DNA from: Haloflavibacter putidus
GTDB lineage: Bacteria; Bacteroidota; Bacteroidia; Flavobacteriales; Flavobacteriaceae
Direction: 5' to 3'
NCBI RefSeq assembly: GCF_006546625.1
Contig: NZ_VIAR01000007.1
Coordinates: 62,001-126,000, forward strand
DNA: 64,000 bases
Positions within the stretch are counted from its first letter, which is position 1. Every line of letters begins with the position of its first letter. The position numbers and the translations under genes are program-made. Of this stretch, positions 43,390 through 59,216 are shown piece by piece. The notes beneath the pieces are model-generated. The model was not told where the DNA came from, ran no database searches, and worked only from the letters and a program-made list of their open reading frames with translations.

Positions 43390-43433
43390 ATGATAATTGT
43401 CATAATCTATCTATCTTTACTTGTCGAAATTTG
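43390..43433 (+). promoter_or_regulatory. FNR-like box and -7 element of ccoI
   Basis: ATGATAATTGTCAT (43390-43403) is a near-palindrome; the -7 box GAAATTTG (43426-43433) differs from TAnnTTTG in one base. Centre to last G is 36.5 bp, about -42 from the expected start. The leader to the ATG at 43454 would be about 14 nt. Confidence 0.72.
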
Positions 43434-43453
43434 CTTTGTTATTTGCTACAAAA

Positions 43454-45847
43454 ATGAATAAAACTTGTTTTCACTGCGGAAATGATTGCGATAAAACAGC
43501 TATCGTCTTTGAAGAAAAAGACTTTTGTTGTCGAGGTTGTAAAACGGTTTTCGAAATATTTTCTAGTAACGACCTTACTTGTTATTACGATATGCAGGCG
43601 GCGCCGGGTGCAATTCCCGAAGAGATAAAGGGAAAGTACGATTACCTAGAAAACCAAAGTATAGTAGAAAAGCTGGTAGAGTTTGACGATGGTAACCTGC
43701 AAATTGTAAACCTCTACATACCGCATATGCATTGTAGTTCGTGTATTTGGATTTTAGAAAACTTGCACAAATTACAACCGCATATAAAATCTGCACAAGT
43801 AAATTTTCCTCAAAAAACGGTACGTATAACTTATAAAACCAACGAGTTTTCTTTAAAAGACACAGTGGTTTTACTCAATAGTATTGGGTATGAGCCCTAC
43901 ATTAGTTTGAACGATGTAGATAAAGGAAAAAAAGAAGTAGATCGCAGTCTTATTTATAAACTAGGCGTGGCCGGATTTGCATTTGGAAACGTGATGTTTT
44001 TGTCTTTCCCAGAATATTTTGAAGTTTCAGAATTTTGGCTAGAGCAATATAAATATCTGTTTCGTTGGTTAATGTTTGCTTTTTCTTTGCCGGTAGTTTT
44101 TTATAGCGGACAAGAATTTTTTATATCGGCTTACAAAGGTTTGCGTTCTAAAATGCTTAATATAGATGTGCCTATTGCTTTAGGAATATTGGTGTTGTTT
44201 TTACGTAGCACCACCGAAATCATTTTAGATATAGGAACCGGCTTTTTCGATAGTTTGACCGGCCTGGTCTTTTTCTTGCTTTTAGGAAGGTTTTTTCAAC
44301 AAAAAACCTATTCGTTTTTATCGTTTGAAAGAGATTATAAATCTTATTTCCCTATTGCGGTAACGCGTATTTCTAAAAATAGAAACCAAGCAAAAGAAGA
44401 GAATATACAAGTTTATGAAATTAAAGAAGGCGACCGGCTTTTAATAAGAAACGCCGAGTTGCTGCCCGTAGATGCTATTTTAATCAACGGAAAAGCACAA
44501 ATAGATTATAGCTTTGTTACCGGGGAAAGCGAGCCGGTTACCAAAACATCTGGAGAAAAACTTTTTGCCGGCGGCAAACAAATGGCTGGTGGTATAGAGG
44601 TAGAAGCTTTAAAATCTGTAGAACAAAGTTACCTTACCCAACTGTGGAGCAACGATGTTTTTAGCAAAGATAAATCTGATTCTTTTGTTAATCTTACCAA
44701 CAAAATAAGCAGGTATTTTACCATTGTTATTTTGCTTATTGCGGTAGTTGCTACTGCTTTTTGGTTGGTAACAGATGCAAGTATGGCCATAAATGTATTT
44801 ACGGCAGTTTTGATTATTGCTTGTCCGTGTGCGTTGGCACTTTCTACACCTTTTGCCTTAGGAAATATGTTGCGTATTTTTGGCAGGGCAAAATTCTATT
44901 TAAAAAATGCTCACATTATCGAGAAATTAGCCCAAACAGATACGATTATTTTCGATAAAACGGGTACAATTACAACCAATCAAAAATCTACCATTGCTTA
45001 TGAAGGTATGACGCTTGACGCGGAAGAAGAAGCGTTGCTCAAAAATACTTTGCGTTCTTCTAATCATCCGTTAAGTCGGGCTTTATACGATTTTTTAGCA
45101 GAACAAGACATTCACACTTTAGACGATTTTGAAGAAGTTACCGGTAAAGGAATGCGTGCCAAACTGAACAAAAATGCTATGCAAGTGGGGTCTGCTAGCT
45201 TTGTTGGCAATCCTGCCGAGCAAAAACAACTAGATACTAGCGTTCACGTAAAATCTAATAATGAGTATAAGGGGAAATATGTTTTTAGAAACCAGTATCG
45301 AGATGGCGTAGATCAACTTTTCAAAAACTTGTCTGCTACCCATAAAATAATGATTCTTTCTGGTGATAATGAAGGTGAACGGCAATACTTGCAAGAGTTT
45401 TTACCGCAAGGAACAGATTTACTTTTTAACCAAAAACCAGAAGATAAACTCAATTATATAAAGACCCTTCAAAAGGAAGGTAAGAAAATAATTATGGTTG
45501 GCGATGGTTTAAATGATGCAGGAGCGTTGGCGCAAAGTGATGTTGGAATTGCTATTGCAGAAAATGTTAACGTTTTTTCCCCGGCTTGCGATGCTATTTT
45601 GAAAGCTTCTAAATTACAAGATTTTTTCAAATTTATGAAAGCCTCAAAAAAGACTATTAGCATTATTAAATGGAGTTTTGTATTATCGTTCTTTTATAAT
45701 GTAATAGGCTTGTACTTTGCGGTTACAGGACAATTAATGCCAGTGGTAGCTGCTATTTTAATGCCGTTAAGTTCAATATCTGTATTAGGATTTGTAACGC
45801 TAATGACGAATATTGTTAGTAAACGATTACATTTGCAGAAAACTTGA
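43454..45847 (+). CDS. ccoI: Copper-translocating P1B-type ATPase for cbb3 oxidase assembly
   Basis: The 797-residue ATPase has an N-terminal Cys-rich metal-site region (CFHCGNDC, CCRGC). Next come a heavy-metal-associated domain with HCSSC, eight membrane spans with the CPC motif (ACPCALALS) and the phosphorylation site DKTGTIT; GDGLNDAG closes the ATP domain. The combination of double N-terminal Cys motifs and position next to ccoS-NOQP marks it as FixI/CcoI, which supplies copper to the oxidase, rather than a resistance pump. The ATG at 43454 is chosen because the promoter above predicts a start of transcription near 43440. Confidence 0.92.
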   Translation: MNKTCFHCGNDCDKTAIVFEEKDFCCRGCKTVFEIFSSNDLTCYYDMQAAPGAIPEEIKGKYDYLENQSIVEKLVEFDDGNLQIVNLYIPHMHCSSCIWILENLHKLQPHIKSAQVNFPQKTVRITYKTNEFSLKDTVVLLNSIGYEPYISLNDVDKGKKEVDRSLIYKLGVAGFAFGNVMFLSFPEYFEVSEFWLEQYKYLFRWLMFAFSLPVVFYSGQEFFISAYKGLRSKMLNIDVPIALGILVLFLRSTTEIILDIGTGFFDSLTGLVFFLLLGRFFQQKTYSFLSFERDYKSYFPIAVTRISKNRNQAKEENIQVYEIKEGDRLLIRNAELLPVDAILINGKAQIDYSFVTGESEPVTKTSGEKLFAGGKQMAGGIEVEALKSVEQSYLTQLWSNDVFSKDKSDSFVNLTNKISRYFTIVILLIAVVATAFWLVTDASMAINVFTAVLIIACPCALALSTPFALGNMLRIFGRAKFYLKNAHIIEKLAQTDTIIFDKTGTITTNQKSTIAYEGMTLDAEEEALLKNTLRSSNHPLSRALYDFLAEQDIHTLDDFEEVTGKGMRAKLNKNAMQVGSASFVGNPAEQKQLDTSVHVKSNNEYKGKYVFRNQYRDGVDQLFKNLSATHKIMILSGDNEGERQYLQEFLPQGTDLLFNQKPEDKLNYIKTLQKEGKKIIMVGDGLNDAGALAQSDVGIAIAENVNVFSPACDAILKASKLQDFFKFMKASKKTISIIKWSFVLSFFYNVIGLYFAVTGQLMPVVAAILMPLSSISVLGFVTLMTNIVSKRLHLQKT

Positions 45848-45887
45848 TAAAAGTCATTTTTTAAGATTACGTTCACAATTATTTTTG
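45844..45887 (+). promoter_or_regulatory. FNR-like box and -7 element of ccoS-NOQP
   Basis: TTGATAAAAGTCAT (45844-45857) overlaps the ccoI stop codon region. The perfect -7 box TATTTTTG is at 45880-45887, centre to last G 36.5 bp. The start of transcription would fall about 11 nt before the ccoS ATG. Confidence 0.82.
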
Positions 45888-45904
45888 AATTCTAAATAAA
45901 ACCT

Positions 45905-46096
45905 ATGAGTGTTATTTATCTTTTATTAGCAATAAGTGTGGTAGTTGCCATAGTCTTTTTTGTTGTCTTTTTATTTTCCGTAAAGAGAGGACAATATGAC
46001 GATGTTTACACACCATCTGTACGCATGCTTTTTGATGATGAGTTAGTAGATAAAGACGCTAAAAAAACTTCAGTAACCAAAGACAAACACAATTAA
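45905..46096 (+). CDS. ccoS: cbb3 oxidase assembly protein CcoS
   Basis: This short membrane protein of 63 residues has one span and then FSVKRGQYDDVYTPSVRML, close to the CcoS pattern (K-GQYDD-E-P--R-L-D). It is needed to insert cofactors into the oxidase. It lies 1 nt before ccoNO. A TTTACGGAA word (45976) is read as Ser-Val-Lys in the opposite sense. Confidence 0.92.
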   Translation: MSVIYLLLAISVVVAIVFFVVFLFSVKRGQYDDVYTPSVRMLFDDELVDKDAKKTSVTKDKHN

Positions 46097-46097
46097 T

Positions 46098-48299
46098 ATG
46101 GAAATGGATAAGTTTTATTACGATAATAAGATCGTAAAAAAATTCTTGTATGCTACAATTTTTTGGGGAATTGTAGGGATGTCCGTAGGACTTCTACTGG
46201 CCTTTATGTTTATATTCCCAAATATAACCGATGGTATTTCTTGGTTGAGTTTTGGGCGTTTACGTCCGCTACATACCAACGCCGTTATTTTCGCCTTTGT
46301 GGGTAATGCTATTTTTGCTGGGGTTTATTACTCTTTGCAACGTCTTTTAAAAGCAAGAATGGCTAGCGATGCATTGAGTAATATTAACTTTTGGGGATGG
46401 CAATTAATTATTGTCGCAGCAGCCATAACCCTGCCTTTAGGGTATACTACAACCAAAGAGTATGCAGAGCTAGAATGGCCAATAGATATTGCAATTGCTG
46501 TAGTTTGGGTTGTTTTTGGTTGGAATATGATTGCAACAATTTTAAAAAGAAGACAGCGCCATTTGTACGTTGCTATCTGGTTTTATTTGGCAACTTTTGT
46601 AACGGTTGCTGTTTTGCATATTTTTAATAGTTTGGCATTGCCGGTGAATCTTTTAAAAAGTTACTCTGCTTACGCAGGAGTACAAGATGCTTTGGTGCAA
46701 TGGTGGTATGGTCATAACGCGGTAGCCTTTTTCTTGACTACACCGTTTTTAGGTTTAATGTATTATTTCGTGCCAAAAGCCGCAAACAGACCGGTATACT
46801 CTTACCGTCTTTCTATTGTTCACTTTTGGTCGCTAATCTTTATTTATATTTGGGCTGGACCTCACCACTTGTTATATTCTTCGTTGCCGGAATGGGCACA
46901 AAACCTTGGGGTTGCATTCTCAGTAATGCTAATTGCTCCCTCTTGGGGAGGTATGATTAACGGGTTATTAACCTTGAGGGGTGCTTGGGATAAAGTTCGT
47001 ACAGATCCCGTTCTAAAGTTCTTTGTAGTTGCGATAACCGGATACGGGATGGCTACTTTTGAGGGGCCAATGCTTTCTTTAAAAAACATTAATGCCATTG
47101 CTCACTTTAGCGACTGGATTATTGCACACGTACACGTTGGTGCTTTGGCCTGGAATGGTTTCCTTGCTTTTGGTATGATTTATTGGCTAGTACCGCGTTT
47201 AGTTAAAAAAGACTTATATTCTATAAAATTAGCCAATGTTCATTTTTGGGTAGGAACTTTAGGGGTTATTATGTATGCTTTACCATTATACGTAGCAGGA
47301 TTTACACAAGCTGCTATGTGGAAACAATTTAATCCGGATGGTTCTTTGGTTTACGGTAACTTTTTAGAAACCGTACAAGAGATTATGCCTATGTACGCTA
47401 TGCGTGCCGTAGGAGGTAGTTTATATATCTTAGGGATGTTTATATTGTTGTATAACATAGTAAAAACCATAAAAGCCGGGAGTGCGGTAACAGATGAGTT
47501 GGCAGAGGCAGCACCGTTACCACGTGTTACTGCCAAGCGTGTAAAAGGAGAAGCTTATCACACCTGGTTAGAGAGAAGACCGGTAAAACTTACTATTTTT
47601 GCTACCATCGCCATTTTAATTGGTGGGGTGGTGCAAATTGTACCAACTATTATGGTAGAGTCTAATATTCCTACAATTGCCAGCGTAAAACCATATACGC
47701 CCTTAGAGTTAGAAGGTCGTGATCTTTATATTAGAGAAAGTTGTGTTTCTTGTCACTCCCAAATGGTAAGGCCATTCCGTAGTGAAGTAGAACGCTATGG
47801 CGAATATTCTAAAGCCGGAGAATTTGTATACGACAGACCATTTTTATGGGGAAGTAAACGTACCGGGCCAGATTTACATCGTATTGGTGGTAAATACTCG
47901 GACAGCTGGCACTTTAACCACTTTTATGATCCACAAACCACTTCGGCGGGCTCTATTATGCCAAGTTACAGATGGTTAATAGAAAACGAATTAGACAAAT
48001 CTGATACCGAAGATAAATTGCGTACAATGGTTGCTTTAGGAGTTCCGTATACGGAAGAAGATATCGAAAATGCACAAGAATGGATGGACTCGCAAGCAGC
48101 AGCTATAGAACAAAGCTTATATTCAGATCCTGACTTTGCTAAAAGTTATGAGGCAGATAAGAAATATGCCGAAGAAAACGGACTGGAATTTATAGAGATG
48201 AAAGATCGCGAAGTAGTTGCTTTAATTGCCTACCTACAACGTTTAGGTACAGATATTAAAGTAGAAAACCAGAGCGGGGACGAAGTAAGTTCTAACTAA
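46098..48299 (+). CDS. ccoNO: Fused cbb3-type cytochrome c oxidase subunits I and II
   Basis: Residues 1 to about 470 are CcoN: 12 or more membrane spans with haem-copper histidines (FGRLRPLHTNAVIF, WWYGHNAVAFF, WAGPHHLLYSS, IAHVHVGALAWNG). From about residue 495 it is CcoO, anchored by one span, with a c-haem site CVSCH near residue 549 and the MVRPFRSEVERYGEYS signature. Fusion of the two subunits is the usual Bacteroidota form. It is the catalytic core of the high-affinity terminal oxidase. A perfect 14-bp palindrome (TTCCGTATACGGAA, 48043) lies inside. Confidence 0.95.
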   Translation: MEMDKFYYDNKIVKKFLYATIFWGIVGMSVGLLLAFMFIFPNITDGISWLSFGRLRPLHTNAVIFAFVGNAIFAGVYYSLQRLLKARMASDALSNINFWGWQLIIVAAAITLPLGYTTTKEYAELEWPIDIAIAVVWVVFGWNMIATILKRRQRHLYVAIWFYLATFVTVAVLHIFNSLALPVNLLKSYSAYAGVQDALVQWWYGHNAVAFFLTTPFLGLMYYFVPKAANRPVYSYRLSIVHFWSLIFIYIWAGPHHLLYSSLPEWAQNLGVAFSVMLIAPSWGGMINGLLTLRGAWDKVRTDPVLKFFVVAITGYGMATFEGPMLSLKNINAIAHFSDWIIAHVHVGALAWNGFLAFGMIYWLVPRLVKKDLYSIKLANVHFWVGTLGVIMYALPLYVAGFTQAAMWKQFNPDGSLVYGNFLETVQEIMPMYAMRAVGGSLYILGMFILLYNIVKTIKAGSAVTDELAEAAPLPRVTAKRVKGEAYHTWLERRPVKLTIFATIAILIGGVVQIVPTIMVESNIPTIASVKPYTPLELEGRDLYIRESCVSCHSQMVRPFRSEVERYGEYSKAGEFVYDRPFLWGSKRTGPDLHRIGGKYSDSWHFNHFYDPQTTSAGSIMPSYRWLIENELDKSDTEDKLRTMVALGVPYTEEDIENAQEWMDSQAAAIEQSLYSDPDFAKSYEADKKYAEENGLEFIEMKDREVVALIAYLQRLGTDIKVENQSGDEVSSN

Positions 48300-48311
48300 A
48301 AGACAACAATT

Positions 48312-48497
48312 ATGCTAAAATTTATTAAAGGACATATGGAAACCATTAACGGGGTAGAAATTTACCCCATGGTTTCTCTCCTAATCTTTTTTATCTTTTT
48401 TGTAATTCTTTTTTGGTGGGTTTTTACTAGCAAAAAAGATTACATTAACGAAGTAAGTAGTATTCCATTAGAAAACGATAAAGACGCCAACCAATGA
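48312..48497 (+). CDS. ccoQ: cbb3 oxidase small subunit CcoQ
   Basis: The 61-residue single-span protein (hydrophobic core MVSLLIFFIFFVILFWWVF) lies between ccoNO and ccoP, overlapping ccoP by 4 nt (ATGA). CcoQ stabilises the oxidase. Similarity is by size, topology and place rather than by sequence motif. Confidence 0.85.
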   Translation: MLKFIKGHMETINGVEIYPMVSLLIFFIFFVILFWWVFTSKKDYINEVSSIPLENDKDANQ

Positions 48498-49450
48498 AAA
48501 AACTAGCACCTTATTTACGAGTAATTGCTCTTATGCTAATTGCTTTTTTACTAATAGAGTATACCGTAGAGGTAGACAAAGGCTCTGTATTTACAGAATA
48601 TCCAATAGCTTGGTTAGTTTTGGGAGTGGCCTTTTTAGCGGTTGTTGCTATAGAAGTAAGTGTCGCAGCATTAAATAATGTAATGTATAAATCTTTAGAC
48701 GAAAAAGCTAAAGAACGCTACCATGCACAGGAAGTAAAAGCCGAAAAAGAAAACTGGTTAAGCAAAACCTACAATAAACTTGTAGACCGTAAACCTTTAG
48801 AACGTGAAGACGAAATAGTTTTAGACCACAACTATGACGGTATTAGAGAGCTAGATAACAATTTGCCACCTTGGTGGGTTTACGGATTTTATGCCAGTAT
48901 TATCTTTGCGGTAATATATATGCTTCGTTATCATGTCTTCCAAGGAGAAACCCAGATAGAAGAATTTCAGGCAGAAGTAGCCGAAGCTAAAATTGCTATT
49001 GAAGAATACAAAAAAACTGCCACAGATCTTATAGATGTAAATACCGTAGAGTTTTTAGATAGCGAAGATGATTTAACTGCAGGTAAAAACGTTTTTAACG
49101 CCAATTGTGTAGCTTGCCATAAAGCAGACGGCGGCGGCGGTATAGGTCCTAACCTAACAGATGAATATTGGATTTTGGGCGGGGGCATTAAAAATATTTT
49201 TAAGACCGTTGCAGAAGGTGGACGTTCCGGAAAAGGAATGGTTGCCTGGAACCAAACTTTAAAGCCATTAGAAATGGCGCAAGTATCCAGTTATGTTTGG
49301 TCCTTACAAGATACCAATCCAGATGGGGCTAAAGAGCCACAAGGGGAAATTTGGGAAGGTAGTGACAAACCCCAACAAAACGCTAACCAAGATAACAGAG
49401 CAGATAATACAACATCGGCAGATACAATTAATATCTCAGACAATATTTAA
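48494..49450 (+). CDS. ccoP: cbb3 oxidase subunit III, monohaem c-type cytochrome
   Basis: The 318 residues have two N-terminal spans, a cytoplasmic loop with NNLPPWWVYGFYASIIFA (the CcoP signature) and a further span. One c-type haem domain follows (CVACHKADGGGGIGPNL, about residue 204). Proteobacterial CcoP carries two haems; only one CxxCH is seen here. The C-terminal 40 residues are polar and low in complexity. An apparent element remnant follows before ccoG. Confidence 0.93.
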   Translation: MKKLAPYLRVIALMLIAFLLIEYTVEVDKGSVFTEYPIAWLVLGVAFLAVVAIEVSVAALNNVMYKSLDEKAKERYHAQEVKAEKENWLSKTYNKLVDRKPLEREDEIVLDHNYDGIRELDNNLPPWWVYGFYASIIFAVIYMLRYHVFQGETQIEEFQAEVAEAKIAIEEYKKTATDLIDVNTVEFLDSEDDLTAGKNVFNANCVACHKADGGGGIGPNLTDEYWILGGGIKNIFKTVAEGGRSGKGMVAWNQTLKPLEMAQVSSYVWSLQDTNPDGAKEPQGEIWEGSDKPQQNANQDNRADNTTSADTINISDNI

Positions 49451-49453
49451 AGA

Positions 49454-49572
49454 AGTTGTCTCAAAAACAAGCTAACTGTCATTTATTGCAGAGCCAAGAA
49501 GTCTAATTTTTGCAGTAGACATCTGCCACTAAGTGAAAAATGATTGTATAACCAAAAAGTTTTTGAGACAGC
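49454..49572. mobile_element. Possible 119-bp element remnant (MITE-like) between ccoP and ccoG
   Basis: GTTGTCTCAAAAAC (49454-49467) and GTTTTTGAGACAGC (49559-49572) are inverted copies with 13 of 14 pairs matching, framing a non-coding 119-bp segment. TGTCTCAAAAA ends of this kind are familiar from insertion sequences. No clear target duplication is visible, and no other copy occurs in the window, so element status is not proven; a terminator-like long hairpin is the alternative. Confidence 0.5.
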
Positions 49573-49618
49573 TGCTTTCTTCTTAGATATTCTAATTACT
49601 GCTGTAAAAAAATCAACA

Positions 49619-51046
49619 TTGGAAACACCCGATAACGAAACATTTAGAGACTCAATTGGAACTATTAACGAAGAAGGTAAGCGCTCTTGGGTCTACCCGA
49701 AAAAACCAGACGGGAAGTACTACGATTATCGCAAAATCGTAAGCTATGTGTTGCTTATTTTTCTAATATCAGCACCTTTTATAAAAATTAATGGAAACCA
49801 ATTTCTAATGTTTAATGTGCTTGAGCGGCGCTTTAATATATTCGGTTTTCCTTTTTGGCCACAAGATTTTCATCTATTTGTACTCTCTATGATAATAGGG
49901 GTGGTTTTTATTCTCTTTTTTACCGTAGCATTTGGCCGTATTTTTTGCGGATGGATTTGTCCGCAAACCATCTTTATGGAGATGGTTTTTAGACGGGTAG
50001 AGTACTGGATAGAAGGGGACCGCGGTAAGCAAATGCGGTTAGATAAACAAAAATGGGATGCCCAGAAAATTAGAAAGAAAGTTAGCAAATGGTTTATCTT
50101 TTTTTTGATTAGTTTTTTAATTGCAAATGTTTTTCTAGCTTATCTTATTGGTAGCGATCAACTTATGCGCTATGTTATAGAAGGACCAGGTGCCAACTTA
50201 AATACCTTTATTTCTTTACTCATTTTTACCGGTGTTTTCTACTTCGTTTTTGCGTGGTTTAGAGAACAAGTATGCGTTATTGCATGTCCTTACGGAAGAT
50301 TACAAGGCGTACTCTTAGATAAAAAATCTATTGTAGTTGCCTATGATTATAAACGTGGAGAAAAGGAAAAAGGAAGGGCAAAATTTAAAAAGAACGAAGA
50401 CAGAGAGGCTTCCGGAAAGGGAGATTGTATAGATTGTTTTCAATGCGTGCAAGTTTGCCCTACCGGTATAGACATTAGAAACGGTACGCAATTAGAATGT
50501 GTAAACTGTACCGCTTGTATGGATGCTTGTGACCATATGATGGAGAAAGTTGGTCTACCAAAAGGATTGATTAGATATGCAAGCGAAGAAAATATTGCTG
50601 AGAAAAAACCGTTTAAGTTTAATGCAAGGTTAAAAGGTTATTCTGCCGTATTATTTATACTAATTGGCGTGCTTGTTGGTATGTTATTTTTACGAAACGA
50701 TGTAGAAGCAAGAATTTTAAGGTTACCCGGACAATTATATGAGCGTAAAGACAATAATATTATAAGTAATGTATACACCTATAAATTGGTAAATAAAACC
50801 ACCAGAAATATAGAAGATATACACTTTAAATTATTATCGCACGATGGGACAATAGAATTGGTATCTGTAAAAGATTTAGATGTACCAAAACAAGAATTAA
50901 GCGAAGGCACATTATTTATTGAATTGAACGAAGGAGCCTTGAAAAGTGATCACGAAAGACTTAAGATTGGAATTTACAGTGGCGATCAATTAATCGAAAC
51001 TACAAAAACCTCCTTTTTAGGTCCGCGTAGCTTTTCGGGCAGGTAA
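49619..51046 (+). CDS. ccoG: cbb3 oxidase accessory ferredoxin CcoG (RdxA/FixG), TTG start
   Basis: A membrane ferredoxin that acts as a cupric reductase in oxidase assembly. The conserved start TPDNETFRDSIGTINEEG has no ATG upstream, so I chose TTG at 49619 (475 residues). The longer frame to 49544 also begins with TTG and would be translated from the element remnant. Spans lie at about 45-65, 95-115 and 160-180, with GRIFCGWICPQTIF. The two 4Fe-4S clusters are CIDCFQCVQVCP and CVNCTACMDAC, and an Ig-like C-terminal domain follows. Confidence 0.93.
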   Translation: METPDNETFRDSIGTINEEGKRSWVYPKKPDGKYYDYRKIVSYVLLIFLISAPFIKINGNQFLMFNVLERRFNIFGFPFWPQDFHLFVLSMIIGVVFILFFTVAFGRIFCGWICPQTIFMEMVFRRVEYWIEGDRGKQMRLDKQKWDAQKIRKKVSKWFIFFLISFLIANVFLAYLIGSDQLMRYVIEGPGANLNTFISLLIFTGVFYFVFAWFREQVCVIACPYGRLQGVLLDKKSIVVAYDYKRGEKEKGRAKFKKNEDREASGKGDCIDCFQCVQVCPTGIDIRNGTQLECVNCTACMDACDHMMEKVGLPKGLIRYASEENIAEKKPFKFNARLKGYSAVLFILIGVLVGMLFLRNDVEARILRLPGQLYERKDNNIISNVYTYKLVNKTTRNIEDIHFKLLSHDGTIELVSVKDLDVPKQELSEGTLFIELNEGALKSDHERLKIGIYSGDQLIETTKTSFLGPRSFSGR

Positions 51047-51058
51047 AAAATTAAAAAG

Positions 51059-51511
51059 ATGAAATTTAAAGTTAATTGGGGAGTAGGTATTGTTATCGCC
51101 TTTGTTGCTTTTATCGGGTTTATCCTGGTTTTAGTTATAAGAATGAGTACAGAAGATAGGTTTTCTCACGACTTGGTAGTAGAAGAGTATTATAAACAAG
51201 AATTGGGTTTTCAAGACGAGATAAACGCACAGAAAAATGCAAATGATATGACCCAGCATATTAAGTTACAAGATAACGCCAAAGGTCTTGAGATTATTTT
51301 TCCGCCTAAGTTGGAAACTAAAAATATCACTGGCAGCGTTTATATGTATCGCCCCGCTAATAAAGTATTAGATTTTGAGTTACCCTTGCAATTAGAAAAA
51401 AATAAAATGCTAATTCCAAAGGACAAATTGCTAAATGGCAAATGGAAATTCTCTATGAAATGGAAGATAGACGGAGAAAATTTTATGTATAAAGAAGATC
51501 TTCGCTTTTAA
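51059..51511 (+). CDS. ccoH: CcoH/FixH family protein
   Basis: The 150-residue protein has one N-terminal span (about 8-30, WGVGIVIAFVAFIGFILVL) and an extracytoplasmic domain with DLVVEEYYKQELGFQDEINA, a typical FixH segment. It is required for cbb3 assembly. It lies 12 nt after ccoG and 15 nt before the SafE-like gene. Confidence 0.9.
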   Translation: MKFKVNWGVGIVIAFVAFIGFILVLVIRMSTEDRFSHDLVVEEYYKQELGFQDEINAQKNANDMTQHIKLQDNAKGLEIIFPPKLETKNITGSVYMYRPANKVLDFELPLQLEKNKMLIPKDKLLNGKWKFSMKWKIDGENFMYKEDLRF

Positions 51512-51526
51512 ATAAAGCTTGCATCT

Positions 51527-52237
51527 ATGGTACTTTCTGCTTTTTTACTAGGGTTGTTAGGAAGTTTTCATTGCGTAGGTATGTGCGGACCAATAGCTTT
51601 TATGTTGCCTTTAGACCGAAAATCTAAAGCCAAAAAACTATTGCAGTTAAGTTTATATCATTTAGGCAGGATTTTCACCTACAGTTTTATCGGTTTATTG
51701 TTTGGTCTCTTAGGAAAAGGAATTTACTTATTTGGCATGCAGCAAAAAATATCTATAGCAATGGGCGTGCTAATGATATTGATTATCTTAATTCCGCAAA
51801 GACAATTCAATAAATTTAATTTCTCTAAACCCATCTATAAACTTATAGGAAAAGTAAAAAATGCTTTAGGAAAAGAATTAAAAAAGAAAAGTCCAGATAC
51901 ATTTTTTAGCATTGGTTTTTTAAATGGTTTTTTACCCTGCGGACTCCTATATATGGCCATTTTTGGCTCGCTTGCTTTTGAGGGTATTGGCACTTCTGCC
52001 TTATATATGGTTTTATTTGGTCTAGGAACCGTACCATTGATGACAGCTGTAGTTTTTGCGGGTAATTTTTTTGGACCTAGTTTCCGTAAAAAAATCCAAA
52101 AAGCCATTCCGGTATTTGTTGTTTTAATAGGTTGTTTATTTATTCTACGCGGTATGGGGCTTGGCATTCCGTATGTTTCGCCAAAAGAAGTTCCGGTGCA
52201 GACCGCCAACTCTAATTACAATTGTGACGCTCCTTAA
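51527..52237 (+). CDS. SafE/TauE-like membrane protein at the end of the cco cluster
   Basis: The 236-residue protein has six membrane spans. GSFHCVGMCGP near the N-terminus and FLPCGLLYMA in the second half are the paired motifs of the sulfite exporter TauE/SafE or DsbD-type (UreH-like) family; both hold a Cys with neighbouring His or Met that could bind copper. In Bacteroidota this gene commonly follows ccoGH, so a role in metal supply to the oxidase is likely but unproven. A TTTACGGAA word (52082) is read as Phe-Arg-Lys. Confidence 0.85.
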   Translation: MVLSAFLLGLLGSFHCVGMCGPIAFMLPLDRKSKAKKLLQLSLYHLGRIFTYSFIGLLFGLLGKGIYLFGMQQKISIAMGVLMILIILIPQRQFNKFNFSKPIYKLIGKVKNALGKELKKKSPDTFFSIGFLNGFLPCGLLYMAIFGSLAFEGIGTSALYMVLFGLGTVPLMTAVVFAGNFFGPSFRKKIQKAIPVFVVLIGCLFILRGMGLGIPYVSPKEVPVQTANSNYNCDAP

Positions 52238-52240
52238 AGT

Positions 52241-52284
52241 CTGCTATTTGTCATAGTTTATCCTTTTCCATACTTTTATCTTTG
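52241..52284 (+). promoter_or_regulatory. FNR-like box and -7 element of the CoA-transferase gene
   Basis: CTGCTATTTGTCAT (52241-52254) is the weakest of the boxes; the -7 box TATCTTTG (52277-52284) is perfect. Centre to last G is again 36.5 bp. Expected leader about 18 nt. Confidence 0.6.
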
Positions 52285-52308
52285 TTACACTTAAAAAAAG
52301 ATAAAATT

Positions 52309-53580
52309 ATGCAAAAGTATATTTCAGGTACACAAGCTGTAAAACTTGTAAACTCCGGCGATAGGGTTTTTTTTCAAGGAGCCGCCATGACACCCGTTTC
52401 CCTTATAAAAGATTTATGCCAACGGTATAAAGAACTGCAAAATGTAGAAATCTTACAATTGCATACAGAAGGCGAAGCACTTTACACCCAAGAGCCTTAC
52501 AGCGATGCTTTTAATGTAAATAGCTGTTTTGTAGGTAGTAATGTCCGTAAAGCGGTAAACAAACCCAGCGGCGATTATATTCCTATTTTTTTGAGTGAAG
52601 TTCACCAACTTTTTAGAAGAAATATACTTCCTATAGATGTTGCTTTTATACAAGTATCGCCACCAGACAAACACGGGTATTGCTCCTTAGGAACTTCTGT
52701 AGATGTAACATTACCGGCAATAGAATGCGCTAAGAAAGTGGTAGCACAAGTAAACCACAAGGTTCCTAGAACGCATGGAGATGGTATTATACACGTAAAC
52801 CAATTGGATGCAATGGTAGAAGCAAACGAGCCGATTTATGCTACATCTATTAAAGAGCCTTCAGAAATTGAGAAAAAAATAGGTAAACACGTTGCTAACT
52901 TAATAGAAGACGGCGCAACTTTGCAAATGGGTATTGGCGGTATTCCTAACGTAGTATTAAATAATTTGACCAACCATAAAAATCTTGGTATACATACTGA
53001 AATGTTTTCTGATGGTATTTTACCTTTAATTGAAAAAGGCGTTATAAACGGAAGAGAAAAGGCAGTTAAAAACGGCAAGATTGTTACTTGTTTTGCCATT
53101 GGGTCACAAAAGTTATACGATTTTATAGACGATAATCCTATAGTGCATTTTAAAGAAGCTGCTTACACCAACGATACTTCCTTAATTCGAAGAAACCCAA
53201 AAGTTACCGCAATAAATAGCGCCATAGAAATAGATGTTACCGGGCAAGTTTGCGCAGATACCATTGGTAAATTTCAATACTCTGGTGTTGGCGGTCAAAT
53301 GGATTTTATAAGAGGAGCTTCTCTTTCGGAAGGTGGAAAAGCCATTCTTGCTATGCCATCTATAACTTCTAAAGGAATTTCTAAAATTGTACCTTTCTTA
53401 AAAGAAGGGGCGGGAGTTACCACAACTCGTGCCCACGTGCATTACATAGCTACAGAAAATGGGGTGGTAGATTTGTTTGGTAAAAGTTTACAACAACGCG
53501 CTAAAGCTTTAATCTCTATCGCGCATCCAGATCATCAAGAAGAGCTGGAAAAAGCAAGCTATGAGCGTTTCAAAAGCTAA
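52309..53580 (+). CDS. Acetyl-CoA hydrolase / CoA-transferase family protein
   Basis: The 423 residues contain the family motifs VSPPDKHGYCSLGTS, MGIGGIPNVVL and NSAIEIDVTGQVCAD, where a Glu forms the CoA thioester, and AILAMPSITSKGISKIVP near the end. Members transfer CoA between acetate and succinate, 4-hydroxybutyrate or others, which would save energy at low oxygen; the substrate is not determined. The ATG at 52309 fits the promoter; an upstream in-frame TTG lies inside the -7 box. The haemoglobin gene follows after 34 nt. Confidence 0.86.
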   Translation: MQKYISGTQAVKLVNSGDRVFFQGAAMTPVSLIKDLCQRYKELQNVEILQLHTEGEALYTQEPYSDAFNVNSCFVGSNVRKAVNKPSGDYIPIFLSEVHQLFRRNILPIDVAFIQVSPPDKHGYCSLGTSVDVTLPAIECAKKVVAQVNHKVPRTHGDGIIHVNQLDAMVEANEPIYATSIKEPSEIEKKIGKHVANLIEDGATLQMGIGGIPNVVLNNLTNHKNLGIHTEMFSDGILPLIEKGVINGREKAVKNGKIVTCFAIGSQKLYDFIDDNPIVHFKEAAYTNDTSLIRRNPKVTAINSAIEIDVTGQVCADTIGKFQYSGVGGQMDFIRGASLSEGGKAILAMPSITSKGISKIVPFLKEGAGVTTTRAHVHYIATENGVVDLFGKSLQQRAKALISIAHPDHQEELEKASYERFKS

Positions 53581-53614: not shown

Positions 53615-53998
53615 ATGCAAAAAGAGATAGAAAATAGAGAAGATGTAGAGAAATTAGTACATTCTTTTTATGTCAAAGTTAGAGCCAATCGTGAGATTGG
53701 CTTTTTCTTTAATGAAACTATAGAAGACTGGGATGAACATTTAGATAAACTTACAGACTTTTGGGAGAGCAATTTATTGCAGGTAAATAAATTTAGAGGT
53801 CGTCCTGGTCGCGCACATATTATGGTAGATCAAAAATTTAATAACAGTATAGAAGCTAAACATTTTGGTGTATGGCTAAATATGTGGGTAGAAACTGTAG
53901 ACGAGCTATTTACGGGCACGTTAGCAGAAAGAGCCAAAAGCTACGCGCGTAAATTAGGAAGTAATTTTCATTTAAAAATTTTTATGGCAAGAAGTTAA
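53615..53998 (+). CDS. Group III truncated haemoglobin
   Basis: The 127-residue globin begins with the helix EIENREDVEKLVHSFYVKVR and contains DWDEHLDKLTDFWESNLLQ and FRGRPGRAHIMV. KHFGVWLNMWVETVDELF holds the probable haem-ligating His. It resembles the group III globins found with respiratory genes in other bacteria. Position downstream of the CoA-transferase under an FNR-like promoter suggests expression at low oxygen, with possible roles in oxygen delivery or NO handling. Confidence 0.88.
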   Translation: MQKEIENREDVEKLVHSFYVKVRANREIGFFFNETIEDWDEHLDKLTDFWESNLLQVNKFRGRPGRAHIMVDQKFNNSIEAKHFGVWLNMWVETVDELFTGTLAERAKSYARKLGSNFHLKIFMARS

Positions 53999-54096: not shown

Positions 54097-55458
54097 TTAA
54101 ATCGTCATAGAAAACAATTGCGTTTCTGGTTTTTTCCGCTGTAAGCGTAAATCAAATGCCATACATACGTTTCTAACAAAAGCACGACCTTTTTCTGTAA
54201 TCTCTATGGCGTCGTTATGTTTTACAACCAAACCATCACTTTCCATTTCCTCTAATTGGTTTAAACTATGTGGTAAACCGGAAAAAAATAAAGATTCTGT
54301 TTTCCAATTGGTATTTAGTTGGCACATTAAGTTTAAAATATGGCGGCGTATAATTAAATCTTCTTCGTTTAAAATATGACCTTTAAAAACCGGAATTTCG
54401 CCTTCTTCAACACGAGCTTTATAAGCTTCTATAGTTTTTTCATTCTGGGCAAAACCATACCAACTGTCGCTAATGGCAGATACGCCCAAACCAATCATTA
54501 ACTGGGTTTTAGAGGCAGTATAACCCATAAAATTACGATGTAGGTTATTCTCACGCATAGATTTGTGCAAAGAATCTGTTTTTAAAGCAAAATGATCCAT
54601 ACCAATTTCGGTATAGCCTATTTCTTCAAACATTCTTTTACCCATTTCGTACTGCTCGCGTTTTTGTTCGCCAGAAGGCAAATCTTCCTCTTTAAATCCG
54701 CGTTGCCCGTTACCTTTTATCCACGGCACGTGCGCATAGCTGTAAAAAGCAATACGGTCTGGCATTAAAGCTTTGGTTTTTAAAATGGTTTCTTCTACTG
54801 CTTCTTTGGTTTGAAAAGGCAAACCGAAAATTATATCATGACTTACAGAAGTGTAACCTACTTCGCGAGCTTCTTCTGTAGCGCGTTTTACATTTTCAAA
54901 AGGTTGTATACGGTGTATGGCAATTTGCACCTTCATTGTATAATCTTGTACGCCATAACTTACCCGTCTAAAACCCACATCATATAAAGCTTGTAAATGT
55001 TCTCTAGTTGTATTGTTGGGGTGGCCTTCAAAACTAAATTCGTGATTTTCTGCTCTGTTGGCAGTTTCAAAAATAGAATTTATTAGGTACTGAAGGTTTT
55101 CTGGACTAAAAAACGTGGGCGTGCCACCACCTAAGTGAATTTCTTTGATAAGGGGTTTTTCAGGAAGTTTGTCGCAATACATACGCCATTCTTTTAGAAC
55201 AGATTCCATATACGGAGTTTCTACCTCGTGGCGTTTAGTAATGCGTTTGTTACAACCGCAAAAAGTGCAAAGGCTCTCGCAAAACGGTAAATGAATATAA
55301 AGGCTTATACCTTCGCTAGCGTTACTTTCTATAAATGCTTTTTGAAAAGATTTTTCCCATTTTTTCGGGGTAAAACTTTTATCTTCCCAATAAGGAACGG
55401 TTGGATAACTGGTGTAACGCGGTCCGGGAATATTATATTTTTGAACTAATGAACTCAT
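54097..55458 (-). CDS. hemN: Oxygen-independent coproporphyrinogen III dehydrogenase
   Basis: This radical SAM enzyme of haem synthesis works without oxygen. The 453 residues have CESLCTFCGC (Cys60, Cys64, Cys67 bind the cluster; Cys69 is also typical of HemN), the conserved start of HemN (YNIPGPRYTSYPTVPYW), EIHLGGGTPTF, and GMDHFALKTD. It lies 13 nt after the universal stress gene and probably shares the FNR-like promoter upstream of that gene. Confidence 0.95.
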   Translation of the reverse strand: MSSLVQKYNIPGPRYTSYPTVPYWEDKSFTPKKWEKSFQKAFIESNASEGISLYIHLPFCESLCTFCGCNKRITKRHEVETPYMESVLKEWRMYCDKLPEKPLIKEIHLGGGTPTFFSPENLQYLINSIFETANRAENHEFSFEGHPNNTTREHLQALYDVGFRRVSYGVQDYTMKVQIAIHRIQPFENVKRATEEAREVGYTSVSHDIIFGLPFQTKEAVEETILKTKALMPDRIAFYSYAHVPWIKGNGQRGFKEEDLPSGEQKREQYEMGKRMFEEIGYTEIGMDHFALKTDSLHKSMRENNLHRNFMGYTASKTQLMIGLGVSAISDSWYGFAQNEKTIEAYKARVEEGEIPVFKGHILNEEDLIIRRHILNLMCQLNTNWKTESLFFSGLPHSLNQLEEMESDGLVVKHNDAIEITEKGRAFVRNVCMAFDLRLQRKKPETQLFSMTI

Positions 55459-55471
55459 GTTTTCTTTGATT

Positions 55472-56302
55472 TTATTCGTGAAGAACCAAAAAAGGCAATC
55501 TTTCCGGATAACTTATTTTCTCCAATTCCGGATGAAATAATAAATGTTGAAAGAGGTTAATATTTTTTGCAGACATAGCAATAATAGAAATGTTATGACT
55601 TTCTAAAAATACCTGTAAGGCTTCTTCTAATGTACTATTCACTGTAAAGTGAAAATTATGCGGTAAATATTTTAAATAAGCGCGTATGGCGCGCTTGTGT
55701 TTTTTTTGTTGAAGACTAAGCTCTTCGTTTTTTTTAGAAACGTATAAAACGCTAAGCTCAGCTTTATTCAGTAATAAAATGTGCGATAGGGTTCGTAAGA
55801 CTTTAGATTGATAAATACTATTAAAATCTGTAGGAAAGACAACAGATTTTGGCGGTTGGTAAGTTGCCTTCTCGGGAATAACAAAAACCGGACATTTTAC
55901 CCTGGTTATTACATCTGTGGTATGACTACCAACGGTAGATTGTTTTAAAGCCGATGCGCCTTTGGTGCCCATAGCAATAAAATCTATAGAAAGTGTTTCT
56001 ACTTTTTCACGTATAACGTCAATAAATTTTTTCTGCTCAAAATGCAAACTGATTTTGCTAGGAACTGCCAATTTTTTCTTAATCAACAATTCTTTTAAAC
56101 GTTCTAATTTATTTGTTGCTGTGTTGTTTTCTACAGTTATGCTGGCGGCGGTAGAAGTGTCTTCTAAAAACGGCGCTTGTTCTAAGTTGTTTTCTACGTG
56201 AAGAATATGAAATTGGGCATCTACATTACCAAAAAAAGAAAGGGCGTAACAAACGGCATTTCTTGCATTCTTCGAAAAATCTGTAGTTATTAAAACATTC
56301 AT
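55472..56302 (-). CDS. Tandem universal stress protein
   Basis: The 276 residues contain two Usp domains: the first (1 to about 145) has ITTDFSKNARNAV and the ATP-loop-like GTKGASALKQSTVGSHTTDV, the second begins SVVFPTDFNSI and lacks a clear ATP loop. The ATG at 56302 is chosen, since the -7 box of the promoter covers the longer start. It is followed by hemN. Usp proteins of this kind are often part of low-oxygen regulons. Confidence 0.9.
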   Translation of the reverse strand: MNVLITTDFSKNARNAVCYALSFFGNVDAQFHILHVENNLEQAPFLEDTSTAASITVENNTATNKLERLKELLIKKKLAVPSKISLHFEQKKFIDVIREKVETLSIDFIAMGTKGASALKQSTVGSHTTDVITRVKCPVFVIPEKATYQPPKSVVFPTDFNSIYQSKVLRTLSHILLLNKAELSVLYVSKKNEELSLQQKKHKRAIRAYLKYLPHNFHFTVNSTLEEALQVFLESHNISIIAMSAKNINLFQHLLFHPELEKISYPERLPFLVLHE

Positions 56303-56323
56303 TCTTAAAACTTTATTACGTAG

Positions 56324-56367
56324 CAAATGTAATTTGATGTACCTATGTAAAGAATGATATTAATCAG
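56324..56367 (-). promoter_or_regulatory. FNR-like box and -7 element of uspA-hemN
   Basis: On the minus strand CTGATTAATATCAT (56367-56354) is followed by a perfect -7 box TACATTTG (56331-56324), centre to last G 36.5 bp. The expected start lies about 16 nt before the ATG. The remaining spacer to 56519 shows nothing else. Confidence 0.8.
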
Positions 56368-56519: not shown

Positions 56520-57569
56520 TTAGTTAACCAACGCCAAACCTTCTGCGTCCAAAACTTTTATGGTTCGTCCTTCTATCTCTATTAAATCTTCTTTTTTGAA
56601 ATTAGAAAGGGTTCTAATCAAGCTTTCTGTGGCAATGCCGGCTACACTGGCCAAATCACTCCGGGTTATTTTTATGGGTTCTCCGGGTTTTTGATTCATA
56701 ACGTCTACAAATTGTAAAATGGTTTGTGCCGTTTTCTTCCGTACAGAACTGTAAGCCATTTGCAATAATTGGTTTTTTATATCGGATAGATTATCGGTTA
56801 GAATGTTCATTAATTCTAAGGATAAACTACGGTTTTGCTCTAAAATATCTTTTAATTCCTTTTTAGATACTCCGGCTAGTTCTACCGCCTCTACGGCCGT
56901 TGCAGACTCGTGATAAGGTATATTATCTATAAAAGAAGTGAAGCCTAAAAAATCGTCCGGTTTGTATAAAGTGGTTATTAATTCTTTTCCGTTTTCGTCT
57001 ATACTATGTGTTTTTACCACTCCGCGCAAGATGAGGTAAATCATATTTGAGTGTTCTCCTTTTTTGTAGATGACCTCTCCTTTTTTAAATTTAAAAAGCT
57101 TGCCATAATCATCAAAAAAGTTTTTCAATTCGTTAAGGTTGCGTAAGTCATCTTCTTCTTTAGCTGTTGCTTTTTGGGTAACACGACTTTTTTTTAAAAT
57201 AGTAGATTTTGCCAACCTGCTTTCTATGGCATTCAATAAATCTTCTTCGTCATAAGGTTTGGTCAAATAATCGTCTGCCCCAAGGTTCATGCCTTTACGT
57301 ACTTCTTTTGGTTCTGTTTTAGCAGATAGAAAAACAAAGGGTATATATTTTGTTTCTTCCTTTTGGCTTAGGTTGTGCAGCACTGCATAACCGTCCATTT
57401 CTGGCATCATTATATCGCAGATTATAATATCGGGTATTTCTGTTTTGGCTTTTTCAATACCAATTTTACCATTTGGCGCGGTATTCACTTTATAGTCAGA
57501 TAACTCTAATAATTCTGCTGTATTTTCACGTAATGCGGTGTCGTCTTCGATCAAAAGAATAGTTTTCAT
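56520..57569 (-). CDS. Response regulator fused to a Crp/Fnr-type DNA-binding protein
   Basis: The 349 residues have three parts. A receiver domain (1 to about 120) has acidic pocket Asp9/Asp10, phosphoacceptor Asp52 (ICDIMMPEMDG) and LTKPYD. A cyclic-nucleotide-binding-like beta-barrel spans about 140-255. A Crp helix-turn-helix domain follows, with recognition helix ATESLIRTL (Glu315, Arg319). Those two residues align with the DNA-contacting Glu and Arg of Crp and Fnr, so half-sites containing TGA are expected. The only cysteine is in the receiver, so there is no Fnr-type iron-sulfur cluster; the signal should come through phosphorylation. The kinase gene lies 4 nt upstream. Confidence 0.93.
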   Translation of the reverse strand: MKTILLIEDDTALRENTAELLELSDYKVNTAPNGKIGIEKAKTEIPDIIICDIMMPEMDGYAVLHNLSQKEETKYIPFVFLSAKTEPKEVRKGMNLGADDYLTKPYDEEDLLNAIESRLAKSTILKKSRVTQKATAKEEDDLRNLNELKNFFDDYGKLFKFKKGEVIYKKGEHSNMIYLILRGVVKTHSIDENGKELITTLYKPDDFLGFTSFIDNIPYHESATAVEAVELAGVSKKELKDILEQNRSLSLELMNILTDNLSDIKNQLLQMAYSSVRKKTAQTILQFVDVMNQKPGEPIKITRSDLASVAGIATESLIRTLSNFKKEDLIEIEGRTIKVLDAEGLALVN

Positions 57570-57573
57570 ATAC

Positions 57574-58815
57574 TTATTGTTCTTCTTGGGGTTGTTGTTT
57601 TGGTATTTCTATGCTAAAAGTACTGCCTTTTCCCAGTTGACTTTCAAACTTTAATTTTGCGTTTAAGTTCTCTAAATGGTTCTTGATAATATTTAGCCCA
57701 ATGCCGGTCCCTTCTTGTAAAACAGCATTTTCTGCTCTAAAATAGCGTCTAAAAATATGCTTTTTTTCTTGCTCGGGTATTCCAATGCCTTCATCTGTTA
57801 TATGCAAAATAAAATTGTTTTCACGGTTGTTGGCGGTAATACTTATTTCTTTCCCTTCCGGGGAATATTTTATAGAGTTGTTTAATAGGTTGGTTAATGA
57901 TAATTGCAAGATCTTTTCGTCAAAATACAATTCTATTTCATCAATATTATCTGGATAGTTTATTTTTTGTCCGTCTTTTAACAACATATTAGCTTCATAC
58001 ACCACGGTGTTTATCACTCTGCTTAACGGAAATTTGGTAAACTTATAATCTACTTTCCCGGTTTCCATCCGCTCTAGCGATAAAAAATCACTCAAGATGC
58101 TATTAAGGTATTTCACCTTTGCTTTTATGGTTTTTAGGTGGTTTTCGCGTTTGGGTTGTTGCTCTTCTTTGGGGTATTTGCCCGCCAAAGTAGCCGAAGT
58201 TAAAATGCCGCTTAAAGGCGTTTTAAATTCGTGCGAGACCATAGATAAAAATTTTGTTTTTAAATTATTGAGTTCCCGTTCTTTTTCTAAAGAAGCTTTA
58301 ATTTTACTTTCTGCTTTATGTCTGCGGTTTATTTCTTCTTTAAGGTCTAAAACTGTACTGCGCAACTCGTTGGTGCGTTGCTCTATTTTTCTTTCTAACG
58401 CATTGTTGAGGTCTAAGATTTGTTTTTGGTGTTCTTTACGTACACTTATATCTATAACCATGGCCATAACATACTTATCACCATCAATTTCAAACGGATT
58501 TAAACCAATTTCTACCGGAAATTTAGTATTATCTTTCCGTAAACCATATAAATCTCTGCCGTGTCCCATTTGTCTGCTATCGCCATATTTTACAAAATGA
58601 CCAGCATAATTTTCGTGTGGCGTGTTAGACGTTTTAGGAACCAGAACATTAAGGTGCTGGCCTTTTAATTCGCCAGGTTTGTACCTAAACAATTTATTTG
58701 CAGAAGCGTTGCTGGCAACAATTATTTGCTTTTTGTTTACCACAATAATGCCTTCTGCCACAGACTCGAACAGGACGCCAAAAATATCTTTATTTTTCTC
58801 TTCAAAGGTTTTCAT
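57574..58815 (-). CDS. PAS sensor histidine kinase, FixL-like
   Basis: The 413-residue soluble kinase has no membrane span. A PAS domain (about 12-127) is followed by a coiled coil (130-180), HisKA with His195 (SMVSHEFKTP) and HATPase (LTNLLNNSIKYS, DEGIGIP, GTGIGLNI). In the PAS domain His67 and Arg87 are 20 residues apart. From memory the haem-ligand His200 and Arg220 of Bradyrhizobium FixL have the same separation, and the flanking residues (HENYAGHF, GHGRDLYGLRKD) resemble it. Haem binding is thus possible, but this histidine occurs in many PAS domains. Its gene immediately precedes the receiver-Crp gene. A minus-strand TATTTTTG (58821-58828) ends 5 nt before the ATG, suggesting a near-leaderless mRNA. 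Confidence 0.93.
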   Translation of the reverse strand: MKTFEEKNKDIFGVLFESVAEGIIVVNKKQIIVASNASANKLFRYKPGELKGQHLNVLVPKTSNTPHENYAGHFVKYGDSRQMGHGRDLYGLRKDNTKFPVEIGLNPFEIDGDKYVMAMVIDISVRKEHQKQILDLNNALERKIEQRTNELRSTVLDLKEEINRRHKAESKIKASLEKERELNNLKTKFLSMVSHEFKTPLSGILTSATLAGKYPKEEQQPKRENHLKTIKAKVKYLNSILSDFLSLERMETGKVDYKFTKFPLSRVINTVVYEANMLLKDGQKINYPDNIDEIELYFDEKILQLSLTNLLNNSIKYSPEGKEISITANNRENNFILHITDEGIGIPEQEKKHIFRRYFRAENAVLQEGTGIGLNIIKNHLENLNAKLKFESQLGKGSTFSIEIPKQQPQEEQ

Positions 58816-58853: not shown

Positions 58854-58897
58854 CTGAGAATTATCATAACTTAGAGGGCTGTATTATTTTAAATTTG
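58854..58897 (+). promoter_or_regulatory. FNR-like box and -7 element of trxA-deoC-deoD
   Basis: CTGAGAATTATCAT (58854-58867) and the perfect -7 box TAAATTTG (58890-58897) again show 36.5 bp from centre to last G. The box lies between this operon and the divergent kinase gene, whose own -7 box is 39.5 bp away on the other strand, so it may also act on the regulator genes. Confidence 0.7.
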
Positions 58898-58916: not shown

Positions 58917-59216
58917 ATGAAAAATAATTTTAAAACCATAATAGCCGGAGATGTTCCGGTTTTAGTAGATTTTTATGCAGACTGGTGCGGACCTTGCAAG
59001 ATGCTATCGCCTATTTTAAAGGAAGTAAAAAGCGCAATGGCAGACAATCTTAAAATTATAAAAATAGATGTAGACAAAAATCAAGCTTTGGCCTCCAAAT
59101 TTCAGGTTAGGGGAGTGCCTACTATGATTTTATTTAAAAACGGCAATCCGGTTTGGCGCCAATCTGGCGTATTGCAAAAAGACGAGATAGTAACGATAAT
59201 AAATCAACACAGATAA
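58917..59216 (+). CDS. trxA: Thioredoxin
   Basis: The 99-residue protein has the active site DWCGPCK (Cys24, Cys27), the buried Asp18 of LVDFYAD, and the cis-proline loop RGVPTMILF. It is a general cytoplasmic disulfide reductase. It starts 20 nt after a good -7 box and its stop codon overlaps the deoC start (TAATG). Confidence 0.94.
   Translation: MKNNFKTIIAGDVPVLVDFYADWCGPCKMLSPILKEVKSAMADNLKIIKIDVDKNQALASKFQVRGVPTMILFKNGNPVWRQSGVLQKDEIVTIINQHR

Follow-up and report, generated by a model that had tools for sequence, protein, structure and literature searches.

In rhizobia, signal receipt and Crp-type DNA binding are divided between two separate proteins, FixJ and FixK. Here, we address whether a gene pair of Haloflavibacter putidus, in which a PAS kinase adjoins a receiver fused to a Crp-type DNA-binding protein (REC-CRP), could do with a single regulator what this relay does with two, and whether it acts on the cbb3 oxidase genes (cco) and hemN close by. 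The pair is located in a stretch of 64,000 nucleotides (the window), for which a first-pass annotation had proposed that a FixL-like kinase signals to a single REC-CRP acting directly on cco and hemN. Low-oxygen sensing in Bacteroidota is poorly described. We conclude that the pair quite probably forms a two-step low-oxygen switch, in which a FixL-like kinase controls REC-CRP, and REC-CRP in turn controls the operators of cco, hemN, and other genes. More generally, many Bacteroidota appear to switch on low-oxygen respiration genes via a probable haem kinase and a single receiver/DNA-binding regulator. The module is a widely conserved candidate for which the kinase, phosphorylation site, operator, promoter position, and target list are all directly testable. 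We found no earlier account of a FixL/REC-CRP module in the open-access literature; subscription journals may hold one.

The kinase gene (57574..58815, minus strand) ends 4 nt upstream of the REC-CRP gene (56520..57569, minus strand), and the ORF coordinates and Pfam agree with the first-pass annotation on this arrangement. Based on Pfam and alignments, the kinase consists of a PAS domain (residues about 15-125), a coiled coil, a HisKA domain with H195, and a HATPase_c domain; no transmembrane-like stretch was found in it (highest 19-residue hydropathy 1.16), as expected for a soluble sensor histidine kinase, and H195 is invariant among aligned relatives. REC-CRP comprises a receiver (Response_reg, residues 4-116), a cNMP fold (cNMP_binding, 160-246), and a helix-turn-helix domain (HTH_Crp_2, 281-346). 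Among 24 aligned relatives, the receiver residues D9, D10, D52, S82, and K104 are invariant. E315 and R319 of the helix-turn-helix domain are also invariant. The only cysteine of the regulator is C51; therefore, it lacks the Fnr cysteine cluster, as had been claimed, and neither the N-terminal nor the central cysteines that hold the [4Fe-4S] cluster of Fnr were found in the window's REC-CRP. Aligned without gaps to Mycobacterium CRP, REC-CRP has Phe and Tyr where the Glu and Arg that contact cAMP would be. Because REC-CRP has one cysteine only and is missing the cAMP-contacting residues, we consider an Fnr cluster or cAMP unlikely as its input. The predicted model of the regulator (pTM 0.40) is too uncertain to show by what means the receiver controls the Crp part.

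The genes named by the first-pass annotation were found near the module. Downstream of REC-CRP lie usp, which encodes a universal stress protein (55472..56326, minus strand, likely start ATG at 56302), and, 13 nt further on, hemN (54097..55458, minus strand), which by sequence resemblance encodes an oxygen-independent coproporphyrinogen III oxidase. These are followed, on the other strand, by a globin-like gene, an acetyl-CoA hydrolase gene (52282-53580, plus strand, likely start 52309), and the cco cluster (43421-52237). The cluster consists of ccoI for a FixI-type P-type ATPase (43421..45847, plus strand, likely start ATG at 43454), ccoS, fused ccoNO, ccoQ, and ccoP for the cbb3 oxidase (45905..49450, plus strand), and ccoG, ccoH, and a gene for a DsbD_2-family assembly protein (49544..52237, plus strand). 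On the other side of the kinase gene lies trx (58917-59216, plus strand). The globin-like gene, between the hydrolase gene and hemN (53615-53998), encodes a 127-residue protein that resembles truncated haemoglobins by eye; a Pfam search with this protein gave no match.

The nearest public relative of the module is that of a Mesonia, with 93% identity and the same gene order. In our close set, i.e., the best 80 relatives in the genome collection, nearly all labelled Flavobacteriaceae, usp follows the regulator throughout, with the kinase gene also present in the group in 79 of the 80. A PAS kinase also directly adjoins REC-CRP in 33 of 40 further, class-wide loci, which come mostly from other families and have 35-48% identity. 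The pairing in 79/80 close and 33/40 distant relatives means that this arrangement is not due to chance. Full-length REC-CRP is encoded in 86 of 199 genomes in an even sample of the family Flavobacteriaceae (complete matches plus one at a contig edge) and in 56 of 395 genomes in an even sample of the phylum Bacteroidota. By these counts, the kinase/REC-CRP pair is an old and widespread module. The linkage to cco and hemN recurs class-wide, with cco in 17 and hemN in 12 of the 40 loci within ~9 kb of REC-CRP, and relatives of hemN adjoin the module in distant genomes; however, the linkage is rare among close relatives, in which cco and hemN are each near the module in only 8/80. Most close-relative loci instead continue into usp arrays, and genes recognised as Hsp20-like, DnaJ-like, and dehydrogenase-like are also nearby. 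In these arrays downstream of the module (L009-L088), many genes have an operator of their own, with 193 sites upstream of usp genes.

The operator emerged when the intergenic DNA of the 80 close-relative loci was searched without bias for palindromes with a spacer: TGAT-N4-ATCA was found 251 times, in 71 loci, compared with 4.8 expected; the variant TGAC-N4-GTCA came out of the same search. TGAY-N4-RTCA occurs at a density of 2.9 per intergenic kb versus 0.115 per coding kb in these loci, i.e., 25 times as often, and they crowd around the REC-CRP gene, with 45 of them upstream of its kinase gene. According to PMC9723704, the Bacteroidota -7 box TAnnTTTG spans -12 to -5. Of 481 sites, 96 have an exact TAnnTTTG that starts 29 nt past the centre of the operator, compared with 0.17 per other offset, and over all 481 sites the specified letters T, A, T, T, and T of this box have frequencies of 0.81, 0.85, 0.91, 0.91, and 0.69. 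Because the -7 box starts 29 nt on and ends at -5, the operator centre is placed at -41.5. Crp and Fnr bind at this distance when they act as class II activators, and TGAY-N4-RTCA is predicted to be an Fnr/FixK-type operator at that position. The predicted operator has the core TGAT-N4-ATCA, as does the FixK box, and its first base is usually A. The classical box TTGAT-N4-ATCAA is not in excess in the window (66 found versus 63 expected); the form of the operator emerged only by between-genome comparison. These operators are support from the DNA side that goes beyond the first-pass annotation. The offset of 29 also tops the class-wide loci (36 cases), in which a second peak at 51 is caused by tandem operators 22 bp apart (17 pairs). 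Outside Flavobacteriaceae (L167-L206), operators are often paired with exactly this spacing (e.g., L174:2157/2179, L181:4844/4866, and L195:8730/8752), and the predicted positions of such pairs are -41.5 and -63.5; none of the spacings seen in the 80 flavobacterial loci is 22 bp.

In a whole-genome count, TGAY-N4-RTCA without the promoter box is not in excess over a reversed control, and the full layout of operator and -7 box is mostly noise at two mismatches; calls were kept to at most one mismatch. At this threshold, the genome of the window has 18 places with the layout, of which some of those with one mismatch will be chance matches. Five are in the window, compared with about 0.4 expected by its length, and they fall inside 15.5 kb. 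The predicted usp-hemN promoter (56324..56366, minus strand) matches the layout exactly, with the operator TGATTAATATCA at 56355-56366 and the -7 box TACATTTG at 56324-56331. The predicted ccoSNOQP promoter (45845..45887, plus strand; operator TGATAAAAGTCA, -7 box TATTTTTG) is also an exact match, while that of ccoI (43391..43433, plus strand; operator TGATAATTGTCA, -7 box GAAATTTG) has one mismatch. The two remaining predicted promoters, each with one mismatch, belong to the acetyl-CoA hydrolase gene (52242..52284, plus strand; operator TGCTATTTGTCA, -7 box TATCTTTG) and to trx (58855..58897, plus strand; operator TGAGAATTATCA, -7 box TAAATTTG), the latter in the gap common to trx and the divergent kinase gene. 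At the window's own kinase gene, no correctly spaced promoter of this layout was found. Elsewhere in the genome, sites precede genes that, as named from their sequences, resemble those for copper nitrite reductase (nirK), cytochrome c, a CBS-domain protein, phosphofructokinase, and another universal stress protein. The predicted class II operators before ccoI, ccoSNOQP, and usp-hemN, together with the class-wide association with cco and hemN, support the direct action on these genes that the first-pass annotation had proposed. In Flavobacterium psychrophilum, cbb3 and haem genes are induced at low oxygen, as measured in PMC9723704; the portion of that report on which we draw names no regulator.

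The input to the switch depends on the PAS domain. Compared with solved structures (E≤1), the window's PAS domain matches the haem sensors FixL and DosP at 1.5e-13 to 1.6e-10; its other matches are one multi-sensor kinase with no cofactor assigned, at 2.4e-6, and weak LOV matches. The strong matches are therefore to haem oxygen sensors only. As a control, a second PAS domain from the kinase of a relative gave no haem-sensor match among solved structures (best 0.006). The alignment agrees with the initial placement of H67 and R87 as in the haem domain of FixL: with 30 of 120 residues identical (25%), the two residues fall gaplessly on the proximal haem histidine and the distal arginine of Bradyrhizobium FixL. 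Of the 109 kinases adjoining REC-CRP, 105 retain the histidine; those without it are three flavobacterial kinases and one class-wide kinase. The arginine (R220 of Bradyrhizobium FixL) is kept in 53 and replaced in about half; the window's kinase has both residues, but the arginine is not general. Of the class-wide adjacent kinases, 33 have a scorable PAS domain; 13 of these domains are closer by score to FixL than to the PAS of the window, and one of the 13 is identical to Bradyrhizobium FixL at 54 of 122 residues (E 1.4e-31), with REC-CRP adjoining and cco and hemN nearby. The predicted structure of the kinase (mean pLDDT 74, part of the PAS domain <50) and a fold search, in which matches to the kinase core dominate, are uninformative on haem. 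A survey of PAS domains gives the histidine at the haem position as the primary determinant of haem binding in this PAS cluster (PMC10468136). Because of this survey, the FixL/DosP matches, the conservation of the histidine, and the FixL-like kinases in relatives, haem binding by the window's kinase is likely. Many related kinases (L020, L022, L034, L065, and others) are ~500 or 630 residues long, with one or two further PAS domains inserted after the haem-type PAS and ahead of the kinase core.

With the same regulator and the same targets, the PAS domain could instead respond to NO, to the redox state, or to some non-haem ligand, or in some relatives work through an iron-sulphur centre, and the pair would then serve a broader response to respiratory or nitrosative stress. 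We regard this as unlikely, but it has several observations on its side: about half of the adjacent kinases have another residue in place of the arginine that tunes FixL to oxygen, four have lost the histidine, usp arrays take the place of cco at most flavobacterial loci, one predicted site belongs to a nirK-like gene, and some members of the PAS cluster bind an Fe-S cluster instead of haem (PMC10468136). However, the window's kinase keeps both H67 and R87, and canonical FixL-type kinases recur together with cco and hemN in other families, both of which argue against this reading.

Which protein reads the operator was analyzed by counting sites in genomes with and without REC-CRP. The difference was initially only two-fold; therefore, we searched for other readers and found that all ten site-rich genomes without REC-CRP encode an Fnr-like protein (Cys-Fnr) that has N-terminal cysteines and a recognition helix, TATES.IR, resembling IATESLIR of REC-CRP. 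For a cleaner comparison, the 199 family genomes were sorted by three candidate readers, i.e., REC-CRP, Cys-Fnr, and a Crp protein of the type of L005, a second Crp-type regulator of the window's genome (G000:C49:44623-45216). Among the genomes of at least 2.3 Mb with no reader, nine of ten have 0-1 promoters of the layout, and the tenth, which is 82% complete, has 9. By comparison, genomes with REC-CRP only have 2-24 (n=22; P=1e-4 versus no reader, in a statistic that ignores shared ancestry), and where an L005-type Crp is the only reader, the sites are few, at 1-5 per genome (n=4). Operator number thus tracks the presence of a reader. On this evidence, REC-CRP is not the sole reader of the predicted operator, which is common to Cys-Fnr, and further Crp proteins perhaps read it as well. 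The window's genome encodes REC-CRP and one L005-type Crp with a similar recognition helix. The L005 gene lies upstream of globin-like, DUF488-like, and hemerythrin-like genes, with one operator-like palindrome just downstream of it. In eight genomes (G134, G159, G110, G061, G071, G121, G153, and G173), a Cys-Fnr gene is located ~1-2 kb from the REC-CRP gene, suggesting two inputs onto the same operators.

A plurality of readers raises the question whether the pair serves general stress and a different Crp/Fnr protein acting on the same operator, the L005-type Crp here and Cys-Fnr elsewhere, is what mainly drives the promoters of cco, hemN, and usp. The near-identical helix of Cys-Fnr in site-rich genomes without REC-CRP and the globin-like gene beside this genome's L005-type Crp fit such a division of labor. 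On the other hand, Cys-Fnr has no match in the window's genome, genomes with an L005-type Crp alone have 1-5 sites compared with 2-24 for REC-CRP alone, and the sites cluster around the REC-CRP gene, including the 45 upstream of its kinase gene; we therefore consider this explanation very unlikely. That the link to cco and hemN is fortuitous, and the pair an ordinary two-component system with no role in oxygen control, is scarcely credible, for although cco is nearby in only 8/80 close relatives, it lies within ~9 kb in 17/40 class-wide loci versus roughly 1% expected from genome sizes (an estimate; if 2% is assumed, P is about 1e-18), and the cco promoters themselves have predicted operators.

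We favor the low-oxygen switch, which would operate as follows. The kinase PAS domain would hold haem b on H67 and, by analogy to FixL, loss of oxygen from the haem would lead to autophosphorylation on H195. Based on the operon and the invariant residues, the phosphoryl group would then be transferred to D52 of REC-CRP. Phosphorylated REC-CRP would bind TGAY-N4-RTCA, positioned by sequence at -41.5, and may activate sigma-A promoters as a class II activator. The targets would be ccoI, ccoSNOQP, usp-hemN, trx, and the acetyl-CoA hydrolase gene in the window and, elsewhere in the genome, the genes for the nirK-like protein, cytochrome c, the CBS-domain protein, phosphofructokinase, and the other universal stress protein. 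One protein would thereby do the jobs of FixJ and FixK, and the PAS matches and the FixL-like kinases of relatives support this core of the original proposal. The first-pass description of REC-CRP as FixJ and FixK merged is apt for the work done but not for descent: the receiver is closer to the CseB/PhoB type than to FixJ in a model comparison, and the recognition helix resembles that of Bacteroidota Cys-Fnr proteins, which makes descent from FixK doubtful. We also rejected REC-CRP as a FixJ itself, because a LuxR/GerE-type DNA-binding domain was not found in the regulator, whose output by Pfam is cNMP_binding and HTH_Crp_2, and the FixJ model gave 64 bits against a cut-off of 255.

Like the FixL-FixJ-FixK system of rhizobia, the module combines a haem-type PAS kinase, a receiver, and a Crp-type protein without an Fe-S cluster with, as predicted here, a TGAT-N4-ATCA-type box and cbb3 oxidase and haem-synthesis targets. 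It differs in that the receiver and Crp parts are in one chain, rather than FixK being made on demand by FixJ; because REC-CRP is one protein, no transcription step separates the two parts, and the fusion would reach the outcome of a known relay with one step fewer. Further differences are the CseB/PhoB-like receiver, the operator, which usually starts ATGAY and not TTGAT, and the promoters of the Bacteroidota -7 type. Caulobacter also has FixLJ-FixK (PMC4999443), and hFixL-FxkR-FixK of Rhizobium is a variant of the same relay with a response regulator other than FixJ, but FxkR still induces a separate fixK gene (PMC7888657). One-component regulators of the Cys-Fnr/FnrN type, including those of Flavobacteriaceae, share the operator type; however, they have cysteines, from which an iron-sulphur cluster is expected, whereas REC-CRP, with its single cysteine, includes a receiver and has a kinase as its partner. 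NmpRSTU of Myxococcus is likewise a haem-dependent kinase relay over cbb3, hemN, usp, and CBS genes, as we infer for the module, but it uses a globin sensor, an NtrC-type regulator, and a multi-component phosphorelay (PMC11841059).

At a larger scale, we see an even chance that FixL/REC-CRP is a major micro-oxic control of Bacteroidota, put together independently out of a haem PAS kinase and an Fnr-like DNA-binding domain of local origin, sharing operators with Cys-Fnr, replacing it in some lineages, and having tandem operators spaced by 22 bp in non-flavobacterial branches. REC-CRP genes also occur without an adjacent kinase (L186, L190, L192, L193, L195, and L202), and in three of these loci (L190, L192, and L195) the REC-CRP gene is divergent from ccoI.
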